A stretch of 64,000 nucleotides of DNA from Sneathiella sp. P13V-1 (GTDB lineage Bacteria; Pseudomonadota; Alphaproteobacteria; Sneathiellales; Sneathiellaceae): the NCBI RefSeq assembly GCF_015143595.1, contig NZ_WYEU01000003.1:310001-374000 (forward strand). The letters run 5' to 3'. Shown one piece after another: positions 41,796-51,589 of this stretch. Position numbers and translations under genes: made by a program. Positions within the stretch are counted from its first letter, which is position 1. Each line of letters begins with the position of its first letter. The notes beneath the pieces were generated by a model. The model worked only from the letters and a program-made list of their open reading frames with translations, made no database searches and had not been told where the DNA came from.

Positions 41796-42208
41796 CCGGC
41801 ATCGAACAAGCTATCCATATCTTTGAAAGTCTTGAACTCCATCGCATTACCTGCGGGGTCTTTGATAAAGAAAATCCCCTGCTCGCCTGGCTGACCTTCA
41901 AAACGGATGCGCGGTTCAATGATAAATTCAACACCCGCCGCTTTAACACGCTCCAGCAGAGATTCCCATTCTGACCACTCCAATACGGCACCGAAATGGC
42001 GAACCGGCACCTGATCCCCGTCCACACCATTTGTTTGCGCGCCTGTACATTCTTCAGGTTTCACATGAGCAGAAATCTGATGACCAAAGAAATCAAAATC
42101 AATCCATTTCTCAGCTTCACGCCCGACCTTGCAGCCTAGAACATCAACAAAAAACTGGCGTGTATCTTCTATATCCAGAACAGGGAACGCAAGGTGAAAC
42201 GGGGGCAT
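41792..42208 (-). CDS. VOC (glyoxalase/bleomycin-resistance fold) protein
   Basis: A 138-residue VOC-superfamily protein: HLAFPVLDIEDTRQFFVDVLGC at the start, WIDFDFFGHQISAH, VEFIIEPRIRFEGQPGEQGIFFIKDPAGNAMEFKTF at the end. The potential metal ligands (His, His, Glu) fit an extradiol-dioxygenase-like or glyoxalase-like site. The substrate is unknown. GGAG precedes the ATG. It overlaps the convergent cobD by four bases and is divergent from the riboswitch-controlled cob operon. Confidence 0.82.
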   Translation of the reverse strand: MPPFHLAFPVLDIEDTRQFFVDVLGCKVGREAEKWIDFDFFGHQISAHVKPEECTGAQTNGVDGDQVPVRHFGAVLEWSEWESLLERVKAAGVEFIIEPRIRFEGQPGEQGIFFIKDPAGNAMEFKTFKDMDSLFDAG

Positions 42209-42280
42209 TAATTTTCTCCAGACAAGTCTTCTAACCAGCCGGGACGGTAATCTCTTTTGTGCCTCCTGTCACTTATTGAA

Positions 42281-42309
42281 TTGACACCAACCCGTTATCC
42301 CCTTAGCGT
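42281..42309 (+). promoter_or_regulatory. Possible promoter of the riboswitch-controlled cob operon
   Basis: TTGACA at 42281-42286 is a perfect -35 box. TAGCGT lies 17 bases further as a weak -10. A start about seven bases beyond would fall just before the riboswitch aptamer, which supports the choice. Confidence 0.45.
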
Positions 42310-42317
42310 CCGGCAAC

Positions 42318-42476
42318 GATGGTTCCTGAAGTTTTTTGGGATTAAAAAGGGAACGCGGTGCGATTAAGATCAATTCCGCGGCTGTCCCCGCAACTGTAGG
42401 CGATTAGCCGAACAACAAACCACTGCTACGGCGGGAAGGTGTTCGGTGTCATTCGTAAGCCAGGAGACCTGCCATC
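42318..42476 (+). promoter_or_regulatory. Cobalamin (B12) riboswitch upstream of cobW
   Basis: The order of conserved elements matches the adenosylcobalamin aptamer: GGTTCC, TTAAAAAGGGAA, CCGCGGCTGTCCCCGCAACTGT, CACTGC, GGCGGGAAGG, and the B12 box AGCCAGGAGACCTGCC at 42458-42473. It controls the following leader ORF and cobW-cobN-cobO-cobQ. No T-tract terminator is seen between aptamer and cobW, so translational control by ribosome-site masking is more likely than attenuation. Confidence 0.96.
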
Positions 42477-42493
42477 AAATGAGGTTCTAAAAC

Positions 42494-42619
42494 ATGACGG
42501 AGGATCATGACGTGCCGAGAATGAGTTTTATTCGGCCTCTTACATCGCTGATTACCTGCGCCCGTTCTGGTTTGCCAGCGCGCCATATCCCCATGTCTTC
42601 ATTTCAGGAAAAACCATGA
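42494..42619 (+). CDS. Possible 41-codon leader ORF coupled to cobW
   Basis: An ATG 18 bases after the riboswitch aptamer, with GAGG nine bases upstream, opens a 41-residue frame that ends in TGA overlapping the cobW ATG (ATGA). The product includes MSFIRPLTSLITCARSGLPARH and has no recognised homologue. If translated, the riboswitch would control this ORF and cobW would follow by coupling. Start codons later in the frame are also possible. Chance cannot be excluded for a frame this short. Confidence 0.35.
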   Translation: MTEDHDVPRMSFIRPLTSLITCARSGLPARHIPMSSFQEKP

Positions 42620-43650
42620 CCGCATACGAGAAAATTCCAGCAACTGTTGTAACCGGCTTTTTGGGTGCTGGTAAGACCAGCCTCATCCGCAATCTAATTG
42701 AGAACGCAAATGGCAAACGCCTTGCGTTGATTATCAATGAATTTGGTGATCTAGGGGTCGACGGTGAAGTCTTGAAAGGCTGCGGTAATGAAAATTGCAG
42801 TGAAGAAGACATTGTCGAGCTCGCCAATGGATGTATCTGCTGTACGGTTGCAGATGACTTCCTGCCAACCATTCAGGCGCTGCTGGATCGTGAAGAACGT
42901 CCTGATCATATTATAGTTGAAACATCCGGCCTTGCCCTGCCAAAACCTTTGGTTCGTGCCTTTGGATGGCCAGAGGTGCGTACTCAGGTGACAGTGGATG
43001 GTGTTGTCACTGTAATCGACAGCCCTGCCTATCGTGACGGGTTGTTTGCCTCTAACCCGGATGCCGTACAAGCGCAGCGCGAAGCAGATGAAAATCTGGA
43101 TCATGATAGTCCATTAGAGGAACTGTTCGAAGACCAGCTCAATTGCGCAGATATGATCTTGCTGAACAAAGCAGATATGCTGGAAGATGCTGATCTTGTA
43201 AAAGCAGAAACAGAACTTCGGGATCGTGTACGCCCATCGGTGAAATTGGTTCGCACTTCCCATGGGAACATCAGCGCCGCGGTTCTTTTGGGAATGGGGG
43301 CCGCCGCAGAAGATGATCTGGAAGGGCGCAAATCCCACCATGATGATCATGACGATCACGAACATGATGATTTCGACAGCTTTGTTGTGGCCCTTGATAA
43401 CCCTGACGATCCGGAAACACTGGTTGCTCGTTTGAAATCCGCCATCGAAAATCATGGCATCCTTCGGGCAAAAGGTTTCATTGCCGTGAATGGTAAGGAT
43501 ATGCGCCTTGTGGTTCAGGCCGTTGGAAATCGCATTCAGCATTATTTTGATCGCGAATGGAATGACAGTGACGAACGTGTCAGCCGTCTTGTCATAATTG
43601 GCGAGCATGGCCTTGATGAAGGTGCTATTACTTCCGCGCTAAAGGGTTAA
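42616..43650 (+). CDS. cobW: CobW, G3E GTPase metallochaperone
   Basis: A 344-residue COG0523 GTPase: GFLGAGKT P-loop (14-21), the metal-binding CICC-type motif (Cys73, Cys75, Cys76) in NGCICCTV, and EDQLNCADMILLNKADM with the NKAD guanine motif. A His/Asp-rich linker SHHDDHDDHEHDDFD (about residues 238-251) precedes the C-terminal domain. CobW is thought to load cobalt into the chelatase, and it sits directly upstream of cobN here. The ATG overlaps the leader ORF, and CAGGAAAAA lies upstream. Confidence 0.94.
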   Translation: MTAYEKIPATVVTGFLGAGKTSLIRNLIENANGKRLALIINEFGDLGVDGEVLKGCGNENCSEEDIVELANGCICCTVADDFLPTIQALLDREERPDHIIVETSGLALPKPLVRAFGWPEVRTQVTVDGVVTVIDSPAYRDGLFASNPDAVQAQREADENLDHDSPLEELFEDQLNCADMILLNKADMLEDADLVKAETELRDRVRPSVKLVRTSHGNISAAVLLGMGAAAEDDLEGRKSHHDDHDDHEHDDFDSFVVALDNPDDPETLVARLKSAIENHGILRAKGFIAVNGKDMRLVVQAVGNRIQHYFDREWNDSDERVSRLVIIGEHGLDEGAITSALKG

Positions 43651-46600: not shown

Positions 46601-47400
46601 AAAAGACCAACCCCCTCGCCCATAAAGTACGCAGGGAAACCGAGGAGCTCATTGCCAAAGGCGTTGAGGCGACGCAAGCCGCCCATCAGGCTGGCTTCCG
46701 CCTGTTCGGATCAAAACCCGGCGCTTACGGCGCAGGATTGCAGGCCCTCATCGATGAAAAAGGCTGGGATGATGAAGGAGATCTGGCCCGTGCCTATGTG
46801 GCGTGGGGCGGATATGCCTACGGATCCAAGGATGATGGCGAGGCGGCTCACTCCCAATTTGAAGACCGCCTTAAAAACATTGATGCCGTTGTCCACAATC
46901 AGGATAACCGCGAACACGACCTTTTGGATAGCGACGATTATTACCAATTTGAAGGTGGTGTAACTGCTGCAGTTCGCCATCTAAAAGGCGCGCAGCCGAC
47001 CATTTATCACAATGATCATTCGCGCCCTGAAAGTCCAAAAATCCAGACTTTGGAAGAGGAAATCGGGCGTATTGTCCGGGCGCGCGCTGCCAATCCCAAA
47101 TGGATCGAAAGTGCCATGCGCCACGGGTACAAAGGTGCCTTCGAAATGGCAGCGACCGTGGATTATCTTTTTGCCTTTGCCGCCACAGCAAAGGCGGTCA
47201 AAGATCATCACTTCGACATCCTGTTTGATGCCTATATAAATGATGATCGGGTACATGACTTTCTAAAAGACAATAACCCGGATGCTTTGCAGGAAATGCT
47301 GGACCGCTTTAACGAAGCGTTGGAACGAAACATGTGGACACCGCGACGGAACAGTACCGCCGCTAACATCGCGGAAATGAAAAGGGAGATGGGATCATGA
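43654..47400 (+). CDS. cobN: Cobaltochelatase large subunit CobN
   Basis: A 1248-residue CobN/BchH-family protein. The C-terminal half has the metal-chelatase segments HMGKHGNMEWLPGKSLALSEECYP, LPTGRNFYSVDSRSVPTPTAW, HYRQSHGSWPKSMILSAWGTSNMRTGGDDIAQALALMGVRPTWD and GMNYDA-like region EMAATVDYLFAFAAT. It inserts cobalt into hydrogenobyrinic acid a,c-diamide, normally with CobS and CobT, which are not in this window. It follows cobW after three bases and overlaps cobO (ATGA). Confidence 0.96.
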   Translation: MHLLAATPGGISDGSEAVDLGQTPGDIVVLSAADTELSSLALVNEEREENAPSLRLANNMQLSHNLSVDIYVEEIISEAKLVVVRLLGGVSYWSYGVEQITECCRRNNIPLALLPGDDKEDPELLGLNTLPADQVHRLWQYLVQGGAINYRAFLEYCDFILDGQSDWQEPYLLPKAGLYCPNTDHPDLNILRNKWIEGQPVVAITFYRALFQANNLAPVDALIEALKDQGMNALPLFISSLKDPVSSEIIETVFEDTNPSVILNATGFAVSSPGGARHETPFDGANCPILQVIFSGGNEEGWRDGLAGLSARDIAMNVALPEVDGRILSRAVSFKADAGFDKRTETNIVTYKPVLDRIDFVAKLAAKWAILQKTDPIDRKIALILANYPNRNGRIGNGVGLDTPAGVIEVLNALHKERYAVSGIPEDGNALIDALLSGPTNDRQTDGVYRLSECHLSVSDYQKMFESLPEKVRSEVTKRWGSPSDDPFVEDGEFHLSVKRYGNILIGIQPARGYNINPTESYHDPDLVPPHGYLAFYMWLREVEGIHAAVHMGKHGNMEWLPGKSLALSEECYPETVFGALPHIYPFIVNDPGEGTQAKRRSSAVIIDHLTPPMTRAESYGPLADLERLVDEYYEAAGVDPRRLELLKKQILEMTQLSGVDSDCGITEGESEEEQLSKLDNYLCELKELQIRDGLHIFGKSPDGRQLEDLLVALVRIPRGDGKGRDASLIRALARDLDIDDEFDPLDCEMGASWTGPRPAALDRDIKWRSNGDTVERLELLASDLISGRTAPEENWVQTKAALAYVEETLKPTVLSSGNDELKGLLKGLNGDFVPAGPSGAPTRGRNDVLPTGRNFYSVDSRSVPTPTAWLLGWKSAERLIAHYRQSHGSWPKSMILSAWGTSNMRTGGDDIAQALALMGVRPTWDKASNRVTGFEILPESILDRPRVDVTLRISGFFRDAFPQQMALFDSASRAVAKLDEDEKTNPLAHKVRRETEELIAKGVEATQAAHQAGFRLFGSKPGAYGAGLQALIDEKGWDDEGDLARAYVAWGGYAYGSKDDGEAAHSQFEDRLKNIDAVVHNQDNREHDLLDSDDYYQFEGGVTAAVRHLKGAQPTIYHNDHSRPESPKIQTLEEEIGRIVRARAANPKWIESAMRHGYKGAFEMAATVDYLFAFAATAKAVKDHHFDILFDAYINDDRVHDFLKDNNPDALQEMLDRFNEALERNMWTPRRNSTAANIAEMKREMGS

Positions 47401-48032
47401 CAGGAAAACAACTGACACCTGAAGAGCTGGAACGCGCCAACGAAAAGGCCCGCAAAAAGAAAGCCGCCCGCGACAAAATGCTGGCAACCAAAACCATCGA
47501 AAAGGGACTGCTGATTGTCCACACAGGTAAAGGGAAAGGCAAATCCACTGCCGCCTTTGGTCTTGCCGCCCGTGCCATTGGCAACGACATGAAAGTTGGT
47601 GTTGTCCAATATGTAAAAGGCAAATGGGAAACCGGAGAGCGTAAAGTTCTGGAAGCCTTCCCTGATCAGATTGAAATTCACACCATGGGTGAAGGATTTA
47701 CGTGGGAGACGCAGGATCGTGAACGGGATATTCGCGCGGCTGAAAAAGCATGGGCAAAGTCCAAGGAAATGATCGAAGCCTGTCGCGGTGAAAATCCTGA
47801 ATATGACATGATCATTCTGGATGAGCTTAACATCGTCCTTCGTTATGACAGCCTTGATCTCAACGAAGTGGTCGAGTTTTTGAAAAACAAGCCGGAAAAC
47901 CTGCATGTGGTTGTCACCGGCCGCAATGCAAAAGACGAACTGATTGATGCGGCGGATCTGGTCACTGAAATGACGCAGATCAAGCACCCCTTCCGCAGCG
48001 GTGTAAAAGCACAGGTCGGGATCGAATTTTAA
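47397..48032 (+). CDS. cobO: Cob(I)yrinic acid a,c-diamide adenosyltransferase
   Basis: A 211-residue CobA/CobO-type adenosyltransferase with a Lys-rich N-terminal tail, the P-loop HTGKGKGKSTAAFG, VGVVQYVKGKWETGE and DMIILDELNIVLRYD. It attaches the 5'-deoxyadenosyl group to reduced cobalt. It overlaps cobN by four bases and shares its last base with the start of cobQ (TAATG). Confidence 0.95.
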   Translation: MTGKQLTPEELERANEKARKKKAARDKMLATKTIEKGLLIVHTGKGKGKSTAAFGLAARAIGNDMKVGVVQYVKGKWETGERKVLEAFPDQIEIHTMGEGFTWETQDRERDIRAAEKAWAKSKEMIEACRGENPEYDMIILDELNIVLRYDSLDLNEVVEFLKNKPENLHVVVTGRNAKDELIDAADLVTEMTQIKHPFRSGVKAQVGIEF

Positions 48033-49498
48033 TGACCAACGCCCTGATGATACAAGGTACGGGATCCGATGTCGGCAAGTCACTGCTTGTCGCAGGCATT
48101 GCCCGTGCTTTGACCAATCGGGGCATGAAGGTCAAGCCATTCAAACCGCAAAACATGTCCAATAATGCGGCCGTCACTGTTGAGGGCGGCGAAATTGGGC
48201 GCGCACAAGCCTTGCAAGCGCGTGCCGCCCGCGCACCGCTTTTGAACGATATGAACCCGGTTCTTCTGAAACCTCAAAGTATGGTCGGGGCACAAGTGAT
48301 CCTGCAGGGAAAAATCTGGGGCAACGCAAACGCACGGGAGTTTCAGAAAGTTAAACCTGAATTCCTGTCAAAGGCTGTAGAGAGCTTCCGCCGCCTTGGT
48401 GAAGATGCGGATATCGTCATCGTGGAAGGCGCGGGCAGCCCGGCAGAAGTAAATCTTCGGAAAAATGATATCGCCAATATGGGATTTGCCGAGGCCGCAG
48501 ATATTCCCGTTCTGTTGGCTGGCGACATCGATCGGGGCGGCGTCATCGCCCAAATCGCGGGCACACATCTTCTGTTGTCTGACAGCGAAAAACAGCGCAC
48601 TAAAGGGTTTATTGTCAACAAATTCCGCGGTGATCCGACGCTGTTTGATGATGGCATGTCGATTTTGGAAGAGAAAACAGGATGGGAAAATTTTGGATTG
48701 GTTCCGTTTTTTCAAGATGCCCATAAATTGCCGCCAGAAGACGCATTTTCTATACAAAGCACACAAAAAAACACCACTGATAAGATTAGAATTGTTGTGC
48801 CGGTCCTGCCACGTATTTCCAATTTTGATGATCTGGACCCCTTGCATGCAGAACCGGATGTTTCTGTTGAAATGATCAAACCCGGCACCCCCCTTCCCAT
48901 AGGTGCGGATTTGATCCTGCTTCCGGGATCAAAAGCAACTATCGCCGACATGAAGGCGATAGAAGACTGTGGATGGGATCTGGATATCAAAGTACACCTT
49001 CGCCAAGGCGGAAGCATCTTTGGCATTTGCGGCGGCCTTCAAATGTTAGGACAGAAAATCACCGATCCTAAAGGCATCGAAGGGGATATTCCCTCCATTG
49101 ATGGGCTAGGGTTTTTGGAATTTGAAACGGAACTTTCAGGGGATAAAAAACTTCTGGAAGAGGCAGGCGAAGATCTCCTGACGGGCAACAGGATCTCAGG
49201 CTATCATATGCATGTAGGGGAATGCCGAGGAGAAGCCATCCAACGCCCGTTCGCCCAACTGGCGTCCGGGTCCGACGGTGTGATGTCGAAAGACGGACGT
49301 GTGATGGGCACCTACCTTCACGGCGTTTTCGCCAACGATCATTTCCGGCAGAAATTCCTGTCGCGCTTTAGGGACGGAACAATAGCACTACTGGCATTTG
49401 AAGAACAGGTTGAGAAGGCGTTGGATGACCTTTCAGATCATCTTGAAACCCATATGAAACTGGATCGATTGGTGGAGGTTGCAAATGCCGCTAACTAA
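48032..49498 (+). CDS. cobQ: Cobyric acid synthase
   Basis: A 488-residue amidotransferase: the N-terminal QGTGSDVGKS ATP-binding motif, KPFKPQNMSNNA, and the C-terminal glutaminase with FGICGGLQMLG (Cys nucleophile), HMHVGE and GTYLHGVF (His). It amidates four carboxyl groups of adenosylcobyrinic a,c-diamide. Its end overlaps cbiB by eight bases on the other strand. The plus-strand unit cobW-N-O-Q under the riboswitch ends here. Confidence 0.95.
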   Translation: MTNALMIQGTGSDVGKSLLVAGIARALTNRGMKVKPFKPQNMSNNAAVTVEGGEIGRAQALQARAARAPLLNDMNPVLLKPQSMVGAQVILQGKIWGNANAREFQKVKPEFLSKAVESFRRLGEDADIVIVEGAGSPAEVNLRKNDIANMGFAEAADIPVLLAGDIDRGGVIAQIAGTHLLLSDSEKQRTKGFIVNKFRGDPTLFDDGMSILEEKTGWENFGLVPFFQDAHKLPPEDAFSIQSTQKNTTDKIRIVVPVLPRISNFDDLDPLHAEPDVSVEMIKPGTPLPIGADLILLPGSKATIADMKAIEDCGWDLDIKVHLRQGGSIFGICGGLQMLGQKITDPKGIEGDIPSIDGLGFLEFETELSGDKKLLEEAGEDLLTGNRISGYHMHVGECRGEAIQRPFAQLASGSDGVMSKDGRVMGTYLHGVFANDHFRQKFLSRFRDGTIALLAFEEQVEKALDDLSDHLETHMKLDRLVEVANAAN

Positions 49499-50542: not shown

Positions 50543-51589
50543 ATGACCGAAAAAATTGGTGTTATGGTTTGTGGCCATGGAAGCCGCGATGAAGGTGCGG
50601 TTACACAATTTGCCTCTGTCGCCAAAGGCATTGCAGAACGCCTGCCGCAATATGAAGTCGACTCCGGTTTTCTGGAATTTGCCACACCGATTATCCGCAC
50701 TGGATTGGATAACCTTCGTGAAAGTGGCCACAATCATATTCTCGCCATACCCGGTATGCTATTCGCGGCAGGTCATGCAAAAAACGATATCCCATCCGTT
50801 CTGAACACCTATGCGGCGCAACATGAAGGGCTTAAAATCTCTTACGGGCGGGAACTTGGCATTGATCTGAAAATGATCCGGGCCGCTGGTGATCGTATTC
50901 GTGAAGCGTTGGAAGCCGCTGAAGATGACGTTCCTTTGCATGAAACCATGCTGGTGGTTGTGGGGCGTGGCGCATCTGATCCTGATGCCAATTCAAATGT
51001 TTCAAAAGTCATGCGGATGCTTTGGGAAGGCATGGGATTTGGCTGGGGGGAAACGGTCTATTCTGGCGTCACTTTCCCATTGGTGGAGCCGGGCCTAGAC
51101 CACGCGGCACGCCTTGGATACAAGCGCATCGTTGTGTTCCCCTACTTCCTGTTTACAGGCATTCTGGTGGATCGTATTTACGACTACACCGACAAAGTTG
51201 CAGCCAAATATCCTGATATTAAATTTATCAAAGCATCTTACTTAAACGATCATCCGCTCGTGCTGGATTGTTTTGCTGATCGGGTTCAGGAAATTCTGGA
51301 CGGCACGAATAATATGAACTGTGGTCTTTGTAAGTATCGTGAGCAGGCCCTCGGCTTTGAGGATGAAGTGGGCATGGTTCAGGAAAGCCATCATCACCAC
51401 GTGGAAGGTATCGGCACTGGGCATTCTCACGACCACAACCATGATCACAGTCATGACCATGGACACCATCATCACCACGACCATGATCACGATCATGGAC
51501 ATAGTCATGATCATGGACATCATCACCACCCTTACCCACATGCGGACCATCCGCTGGGGCCGGTTACCATGAAAAAGGATGATAAATAA
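50543..51589 (+). CDS. cbiX: Sirohydrochlorin cobaltochelatase CbiX, long form with Fe-S motif and His-rich tail
   Basis: A 348-residue CbiX. Two CbiX-type halves carry CGHGSRDEG with His12 and FAAGHAKNDIP with His78. Near the end NMNCGLCKYRE gives an MxCxxC motif (Cys260, Cys263), which in Bacillus CbiX binds an iron-sulfur cluster. Residues 283-336 contain 28 His, mostly in HD or HH repeats, fit for cobalt or nickel storage. It inserts cobalt into sirohydrochlorin, the first step of the cobalt-early pathway. AGTTAAG precedes the ATG, and cobH follows three bases later. Confidence 0.92.
   Translation: MTEKIGVMVCGHGSRDEGAVTQFASVAKGIAERLPQYEVDSGFLEFATPIIRTGLDNLRESGHNHILAIPGMLFAAGHAKNDIPSVLNTYAAQHEGLKISYGRELGIDLKMIRAAGDRIREALEAAEDDVPLHETMLVVVGRGASDPDANSNVSKVMRMLWEGMGFGWGETVYSGVTFPLVEPGLDHAARLGYKRIVVFPYFLFTGILVDRIYDYTDKVAAKYPDIKFIKASYLNDHPLVLDCFADRVQEILDGTNNMNCGLCKYREQALGFEDEVGMVQESHHHHVEGIGTGHSHDHNHDHSHDHGHHHHHDHDHDHGHSHDHGHHHHPYPHADHPLGPVTMKKDDK

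Follow-up and report, generated by a model that had tools for sequence, protein, structure and literature searches.

A likely ribosome-relay leader frame between a cobalamin riboswitch and cobW in the genus Sneathiella

Between the cobalamin (B12) riboswitch and cobW, Sneathiella genomes carry a short open reading frame (ORF) that, judging from sequence comparison, is likely to act as a ribosome relay: placed under the riboswitch, this leader would receive ribosomes and hand them on to cobW. The window, i.e. the whole stretch of 64,000 nucleotides analysed here, is part of a 3.7 Mb Sneathiella genome (G000, contig 3). The conserved frame most likely starts there at GTG 42512, 8 nt after the Shine-Dalgarno (SD) sequence GGAGG, and extends over 42512..42619 of the + strand, with 35 codons and a TGA that overlaps the start of cobW as ATGA (42616-42619). 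The translational coupling of cobW put forward in the original prediction would fit a ribosome site located after the aptamer, the ATGA overlap, also noted there, and the conservation of the frame.

Sixty related genomes, many of them incomplete, were searched, and 24 belong to the same genus, the window's own genome included. The counted set consists of 21 loci of the genus (the window being L001) in which a match to the Rfam family RF00174 lies on the same strand directly 5' of cobW. The genus genomes outside this set are G012, whose cobW is 53% identical and stands ~520 nt behind its riboswitch, G014, with no match, and G015, with a distant match only.

The riboswitch, its promoter and the cobW operon

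The aptamer (RF00174, 42303..42490, + strand) scores 109.6 bits, the gathering score being 31.5, and the family was also found at all 20 other Sneathiella cobW loci. A putative promoter of the riboswitch RNA (42281..42309, + strand), made of TTGACA, a 17-nt spacer and TAGCGT, is kept across the 21 loci, 20 having the exact boxes and spacing and the remaining one TTGACT, with a spacer of variable sequence; the Rfam match begins inside its -10 element. A simple promoter scan called no promoter at 42281-42309. The conserved AGCGTC 5' of the aptamer, considered as an RNA element, is better read as the -10 of TTGACA-17-TAGCGT.

At positions 42382-42391, in the conserved core, the cobW riboswitches of the genus (window, L002-L021) read CTGTCCCCGC, and the other printed B12 riboswitches of the genus read CTGCCCCCGC. 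The L5 region (42362-42371) forms a small extra stem with changes compensated between genomes (GAT/ATC, GAG/CTC, GGC/GCC, GAA/TTC).

The first protein gene of the operon is cobW (PF02492 + PF07683, 42616..43650, + strand), followed by cobN (PF02514, 43654..47400, + strand). The stop of cobN is overlapped as ATGA (47397-47400) by the start of cobO, which encodes a CobO/BtuR adenosyltransferase, and a further stop/start overlap, TAATG (48030-48034), stands before the gene for a CobQ-type amidotransferase. Further 3' come one gene on the opposite strand, then CbiX, CbiC and four genes with tetrapyrrole methylase domains. The CbiX-type protein (50543-51589) has a long His/Asp-rich tail, probably involved in metal binding.

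The ribosome site and the leader frame

On the 3' side of the aptamer, the sequence CATGACGGAGGATCAT is invariant in the 21 aligned leaders, and the spacer from P1 to this element is variable. In the window the conserved SD element is CATGACGGAGGATCATG (42493..42509, + strand; final G in 20 of 21 loci), in which a CATGA/TCATG hairpin is possible at the place of P13, with the SD sequence GGAGG (42499..42503, + strand; present in all 21 leaders) in its loop. Among 38 distinct riboswitch sites from the fetched loci, the element was found in 20 and was absent from 18; by count, the 20 correspond to the cobW loci minus L019, the regular expression used missing some riboswitches, L019 included. Twelve of the 18 element-free sites are other B12 riboswitches of the genus Sneathiella. 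Ten of the 18 have a stem-flanked CGGGGTG at a distance of 23-34 nt downstream of the box, the SD element being at 23-29 nt; these matching distances indicate that the SD element occupies the usual place of a P13-like hairpin. A scan of a genome collection for the motif behind the GAGACCT box returned 19 stretches, 18 in Sneathiella, alphaproteobacterial or proteobacterial records and one in Paenibacillus. Since the 18 come from the same genomes as 18 of the 21 loci, they are not independent evidence. The Paenibacillus match (L068) was discarded, RF00174 being absent from its locus and about one such chance match being expected by our own estimate.

Another B12 riboswitch of Sneathiella (L031 ~1660-1800, in G004) is followed by CGAAC-GGAGG-GTTCG, in which the P13 place is again taken by an SD-like loop, on a stem of different sequence. 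ATGATG and a short frame come next, ahead of the following likely start, and this may be a second instance of the design.

The hairpin itself is of low stability. Isolated, it folds at -2.9 to -4 kcal/mol; the bare 17-mer is equalled by 10.5% of random flanks, and 9 of 200 shuffles do as well as a 19-nt piece. Among 21 short contexts, the hairpin reaches a probability of at least 0.87 in only nine, and the probability falls to 0.42 or less once the interval up to cobW is folded as well. Because its sequence is nearly invariant, covariation is not informative on the hairpin, and longer folds of the window were no more stable than those of shuffled sequences. Folding of the leader gave no consistent partner of the SD in the aptamer. 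Pairing of the SD with the 3' strand of P1, considered as the switch, is possible in 21/21 loci (-7.5 to -16 kcal/mol, the strongest cases being L006 and L008), but its direction is wrong, and with the P1 strand of the window random flanks around GGAGG equal it in 41-52% of cases. For an L5-L13 kissing loop involving the SD, comparison by eye of the L5 stretches with the SD loop revealed no shared complement, and folding again gave no consistent partner.

An ATG or GTG is found exactly 6 nt after GGAGG in 18 of the 21 loci, mostly as ATGATG, the L018 locus having GTG instead of ATG. One extra base in L005 moves the ATG to 7 nt, the frame still ending in ATGA, and L010 has ATA at the usual place and an ATG 3 nt after GGAGG. 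The window is itself an irregular case: it reads ATGACGTG, the second ATG of ATGATG being replaced by ACG. An alternative start, the ATG 3 nt after GGAGG, gives the peptide MTCRE* (42507..42524, + strand), whose TGA overlaps ATG 42521 as ATGA, and the leader frame could be re-entered there. In the window, either the GTG start or this detour via MTCRE* and ATG 42521 must be assumed, which counts against the relay reading.

It had been predicted that the ORF is initiated at ATG 42494, is served by a GAGG of its own and encodes a 41-aa peptide (42494..42619, + strand). This frame is indeed open in the window, shares its phase with GTG 42512 and has the same ATGA end, and the corresponding frame is open in 21/21 loci, so that the existence of a short ORF between riboswitch and cobW holds. 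The start does not. The GAGG (42481-42484, in tgaggttc) lies in the end of the aptamer, inside the Rfam match, and by eye was seen in only 1 of 21 leaders, the window, whereas the conserved SD is the GGAGG at 42499-42503, inside the very ORF it was supposed to precede. The distance of 18 bases given from aptamer to ORF is correct when counted from the P1 strand, but the Rfam match ends only 4 bases before ATG 42494. The equivalent of this ATG is kept within the SD element; in 18 of 20 relatives a ribosome starting there would meet a stop after 6-20 codons, and in the remaining two it would continue in frame through cobW. Comparison of the intervals in relatives, where broken frames were to speak against the prediction, thus goes against the exact ORF from 42494, and the frame starting after GGAGG passes it in 21/21. 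Initiation at ATG 42494 from the aptamer's own GAGG is therefore, in our opinion, very improbable.

The leader frame opened by the start 6-8 nt after GGAGG (3 nt in L010) extends over 32-52 codons in 21/21 loci. Its stop lies 4 nt past the A of the cobW start in 17 of them (ATGA), 8 nt in one, 11 nt in one and 14 nt in two. The two other frames of the interval are stop-free in 0/21 and 4/21 loci, and none of the 21 leaders shares the frame of cobW (p = 0.001 for 17 clusters if the three phases are taken as equal). The interval might still be an untranslated spacer, with GGAGG-ATG as a structural element of the riboswitch. When the interval of the window was shuffled 1000 times with its dinucleotides kept, 34% of the shuffles had a frame that ends 1-20 nt beyond the start of cobW. 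This probability of 0.34 is in agreement with such a spacer, as is the peptide, which is not conserved. Taken by itself, the open frame of the window does no better than random sequence, and only the comparison across the genus makes it significant. There, 21/21 frames are open with a stop in an overlap of 4-14 nt, and the joint shuffle probability is about 3e-12 for 17 leader clusters at 65% identity, or 2.4e-10 for 14 clusters when the loci with irregular starts (window, L005, L010) are left out; both values treat related clusters as independent and are overstated to that extent. Given that 16 of the 21 intervals are at 52-64% identity, we consider this chance explanation barely credible.

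The conservation of the frame does not extend to its product. These 16 intervals, which lie outside a clade of five loci, have only 52-64% identity with the closest of the other intervals, cobW being 69-78% identical in the same pairs; 200 shuffled leader pairs reached 47% identity on average and 56% at most. In the clade of five, the only one close enough for a codon test, single-base codon differences over 10 pairs were 10 synonymous and 60 non-synonymous, the other two frames giving 20/64 and 29/63, and codon positions 1, 2 and 3 differed 48, 72 and 44 times, with no third-position excess. No amino-acid constraint is apparent in this clade. No Pfam match was found for the ORF of the window, and a small protein gene, or any function of the peptide, was rejected on these codon counts and the missing match. 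As the intervals are near random identity and free of amino-acid constraint, yet open with a fixed end, it is the frame and not the peptide that is kept. Selection, as far as the alignments tell, apparently acts on the openness and the end of the leader only.

The same data bear on a regulatory leader peptide of the attenuation type, in which a stalled ribosome would sense an amino acid or a metal. A leader that is short, apparently translated and placed ahead of biosynthetic genes is what such a device would look like, but no residues or codon runs common to the 21 peptides could be seen by eye, non-synonymous changes are plentiful in the clade tested, and no terminator-like site was found on the + strand at 42000-42800. 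Attenuation of this kind is, in consequence, highly unlikely.

A proposed route of ribosomes to cobW

In the relay that we propose, the transcript would probably start just 5' of P1, if the promoter described above is used. The expression platform after the aptamer carries the strongest ribosome site of the leader, the GGAGG within the 17-nt element at the P13 place. At low B12 this site would be open. Ribosomes would initiate 6-8 nt further on (at GTG 42512 in the window), pass through the frame of 32-52 codons, the peptide of which would be without importance, terminate at the TGA overlapping the AUG of cobW and initiate again on cobW, which has a weaker SD of its own. The energies of pairing with the anti-SD are in agreement with this order: -9.5 kcal/mol in each of the 21 leaders, the values for cobW averaging -4.7 and ranging from -3.0 to -7.4. 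In six of the 21 loci (L002, L007, L013, L016, L017, L018), however, cobW has a moderate SD of -6.1 to -7.4 kcal/mol, a point against the relay. Bound B12 would mask the SD element, the relay would not be loaded, and cobW and the closely spaced genes that follow would be translated less. Masking by the ligand, with its OFF direction, is plausible from the position of the SD element and is the weakest step of the scheme. The four overlaps of 8-14 nt also count against coupling, since longer overlaps are reported, in the accessible part of a review (PMC12548453), to couple less well.

Translation of the leader could alternatively serve mainly to protect the stretch of RNA that joins the riboswitch to cobW against Rho or RNases, in which case the switch would govern survival of the transcript and re-initiation would be secondary. 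The lack of a terminator-like site on the + strand between 42000 and 42800 would suit this explanation, and so would the published Mbox of Mycobacterium tuberculosis, which, according to the available portion of the report (PMC12810186), acts on a small upstream ORF (uORF) with Rho-dependent termination. Shielding does not, however, require a stop exactly at the cobW start, as observed with the 4-nt overlap in 17/21 loci; a slightly earlier stop would suffice. We regard shielding as the main role of the leader as unlikely, and retain the relay to cobW as the preferred reading.

Relation to known systems and meaning

The closest known system is uPPE2-ppe2 of M. tuberculosis. From what could be consulted of Kipkorir et al. 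2024 (PMC11260477), the uORF uPPE2 is under the control of a B12 riboswitch and shares an AUGA with ppe2. Experiments reported there established that translation of uPPE2 is essential for PPE2, mostly via termination-reinitiation, and the SD of uPPE2 lies in a hairpin with a likely L13. Compared with that account, the Sneathiella locus has the same parts: a B12 riboswitch, a uORF after the aptamer with its own SD, and an AUGA/ATGA overlap with an out-of-frame main gene. No obvious SD is described for ppe2, and that of cobW is on average weaker than the leader's, with values from -3.0 to -7.4 kcal/mol. Several points differ. The uPPE2 switch is described as a variant of class IIb before ppe2, whereas the Sneathiella switch is a full-length match to RF00174 before a B12-biosynthesis operon. 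Unlike uPPE2, the Sneathiella frame is kept across the genus without its peptide, and is known here from sequence alone. We read the Sneathiella leader as what would be an independent, genus-wide member of the uPPE2 kind in the Alphaproteobacteria.

The Mbox, a sensor of Mg2+ which controls the uORF rv1805A before pe20 with the involvement of Rho, resembles the present case, as far as the consulted text of PMC12810186 goes, in that the riboswitch acts directly on a small uORF heading an operon; rv1805A is highly conserved, unlike the Sneathiella leader peptide. The review of coupled overlapping ORFs cited above, in the part seen, states that overlapping gene pairs most often have a start-stop spacing of -4, which is also one of those that couple most efficiently (PMC12548453), and the NTGA (-4) spacing of the Sneathiella leader is of this type. 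It also discusses short uORFs whose sole role is possibly the delivery of ribosomes, the word "riboswitch" being absent from its main text (PMC12548453). Literature searches returned no paper on Sneathiella riboswitches, nor on the combination of riboswitch, leader peptide, cobW and B12. For cobalamin riboswitch, uORF and translational coupling together, only the M. tuberculosis case was found (PMC11260477), and in the wider literature no report of the Sneathiella case stood among the matches listed (best 20 of 636; best 15 of 32).

For a comparison at the level of the class, the best 30 of 85 matching genomes were taken, and the 24 new cobW loci among them, outside the genus, were examined for RF00174. 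It was present in 19 of these loci and, in seven, lay 92-161 nt before the cobW match. Unlike the Sneathiella leaders, five of these seven alphaproteobacterial riboswitches have CGGGGTG, without SD, at the P13 place, and L080 and L100 show neither. No SD-led uORF overlapping a plausible cobW start was found in the seven loci, a 6-codon frame of L100 against a remote TTG apart. Candidates set aside there are the open frames of L089 and L094, with a 4-nt overlap but without SD, and those of L100, which have no more than 9 codons, end at remote alternative starts and in one case have an AGGA. In several Alphaproteobacteria (L080-L103) riboswitch and cobW lie ~600 nt apart, a distance that could accommodate a gene, and the P13 place again has CGGGGTG.

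The target of a riboswitch is usually annotated as the first long gene downstream, and the likely direct target here is a frame that annotation would miss. If the relay is real, a reporter joined at cobW that lacks the leader would give a false picture of the switch. The 21 sequences would then form a natural series in which SD, start spacing, absence of stops and overlap are kept and peptide and length are free, and the coupling of riboswitch and uORF known from M. tuberculosis would be extended to a second, unrelated lineage. In a broader interpretation, to which we give even chances, a B12 riboswitch that is ordinary in other respects would have had its regulatory hairpin converted to a ribosome entry site that loads a sequence-free relay frame leading to cobW, a single SD would license a B12-synthesis operon with overlapping or closely spaced junctions, and riboswitches acting on content-free uORFs may recur, unannotated, outside mycobacteria.
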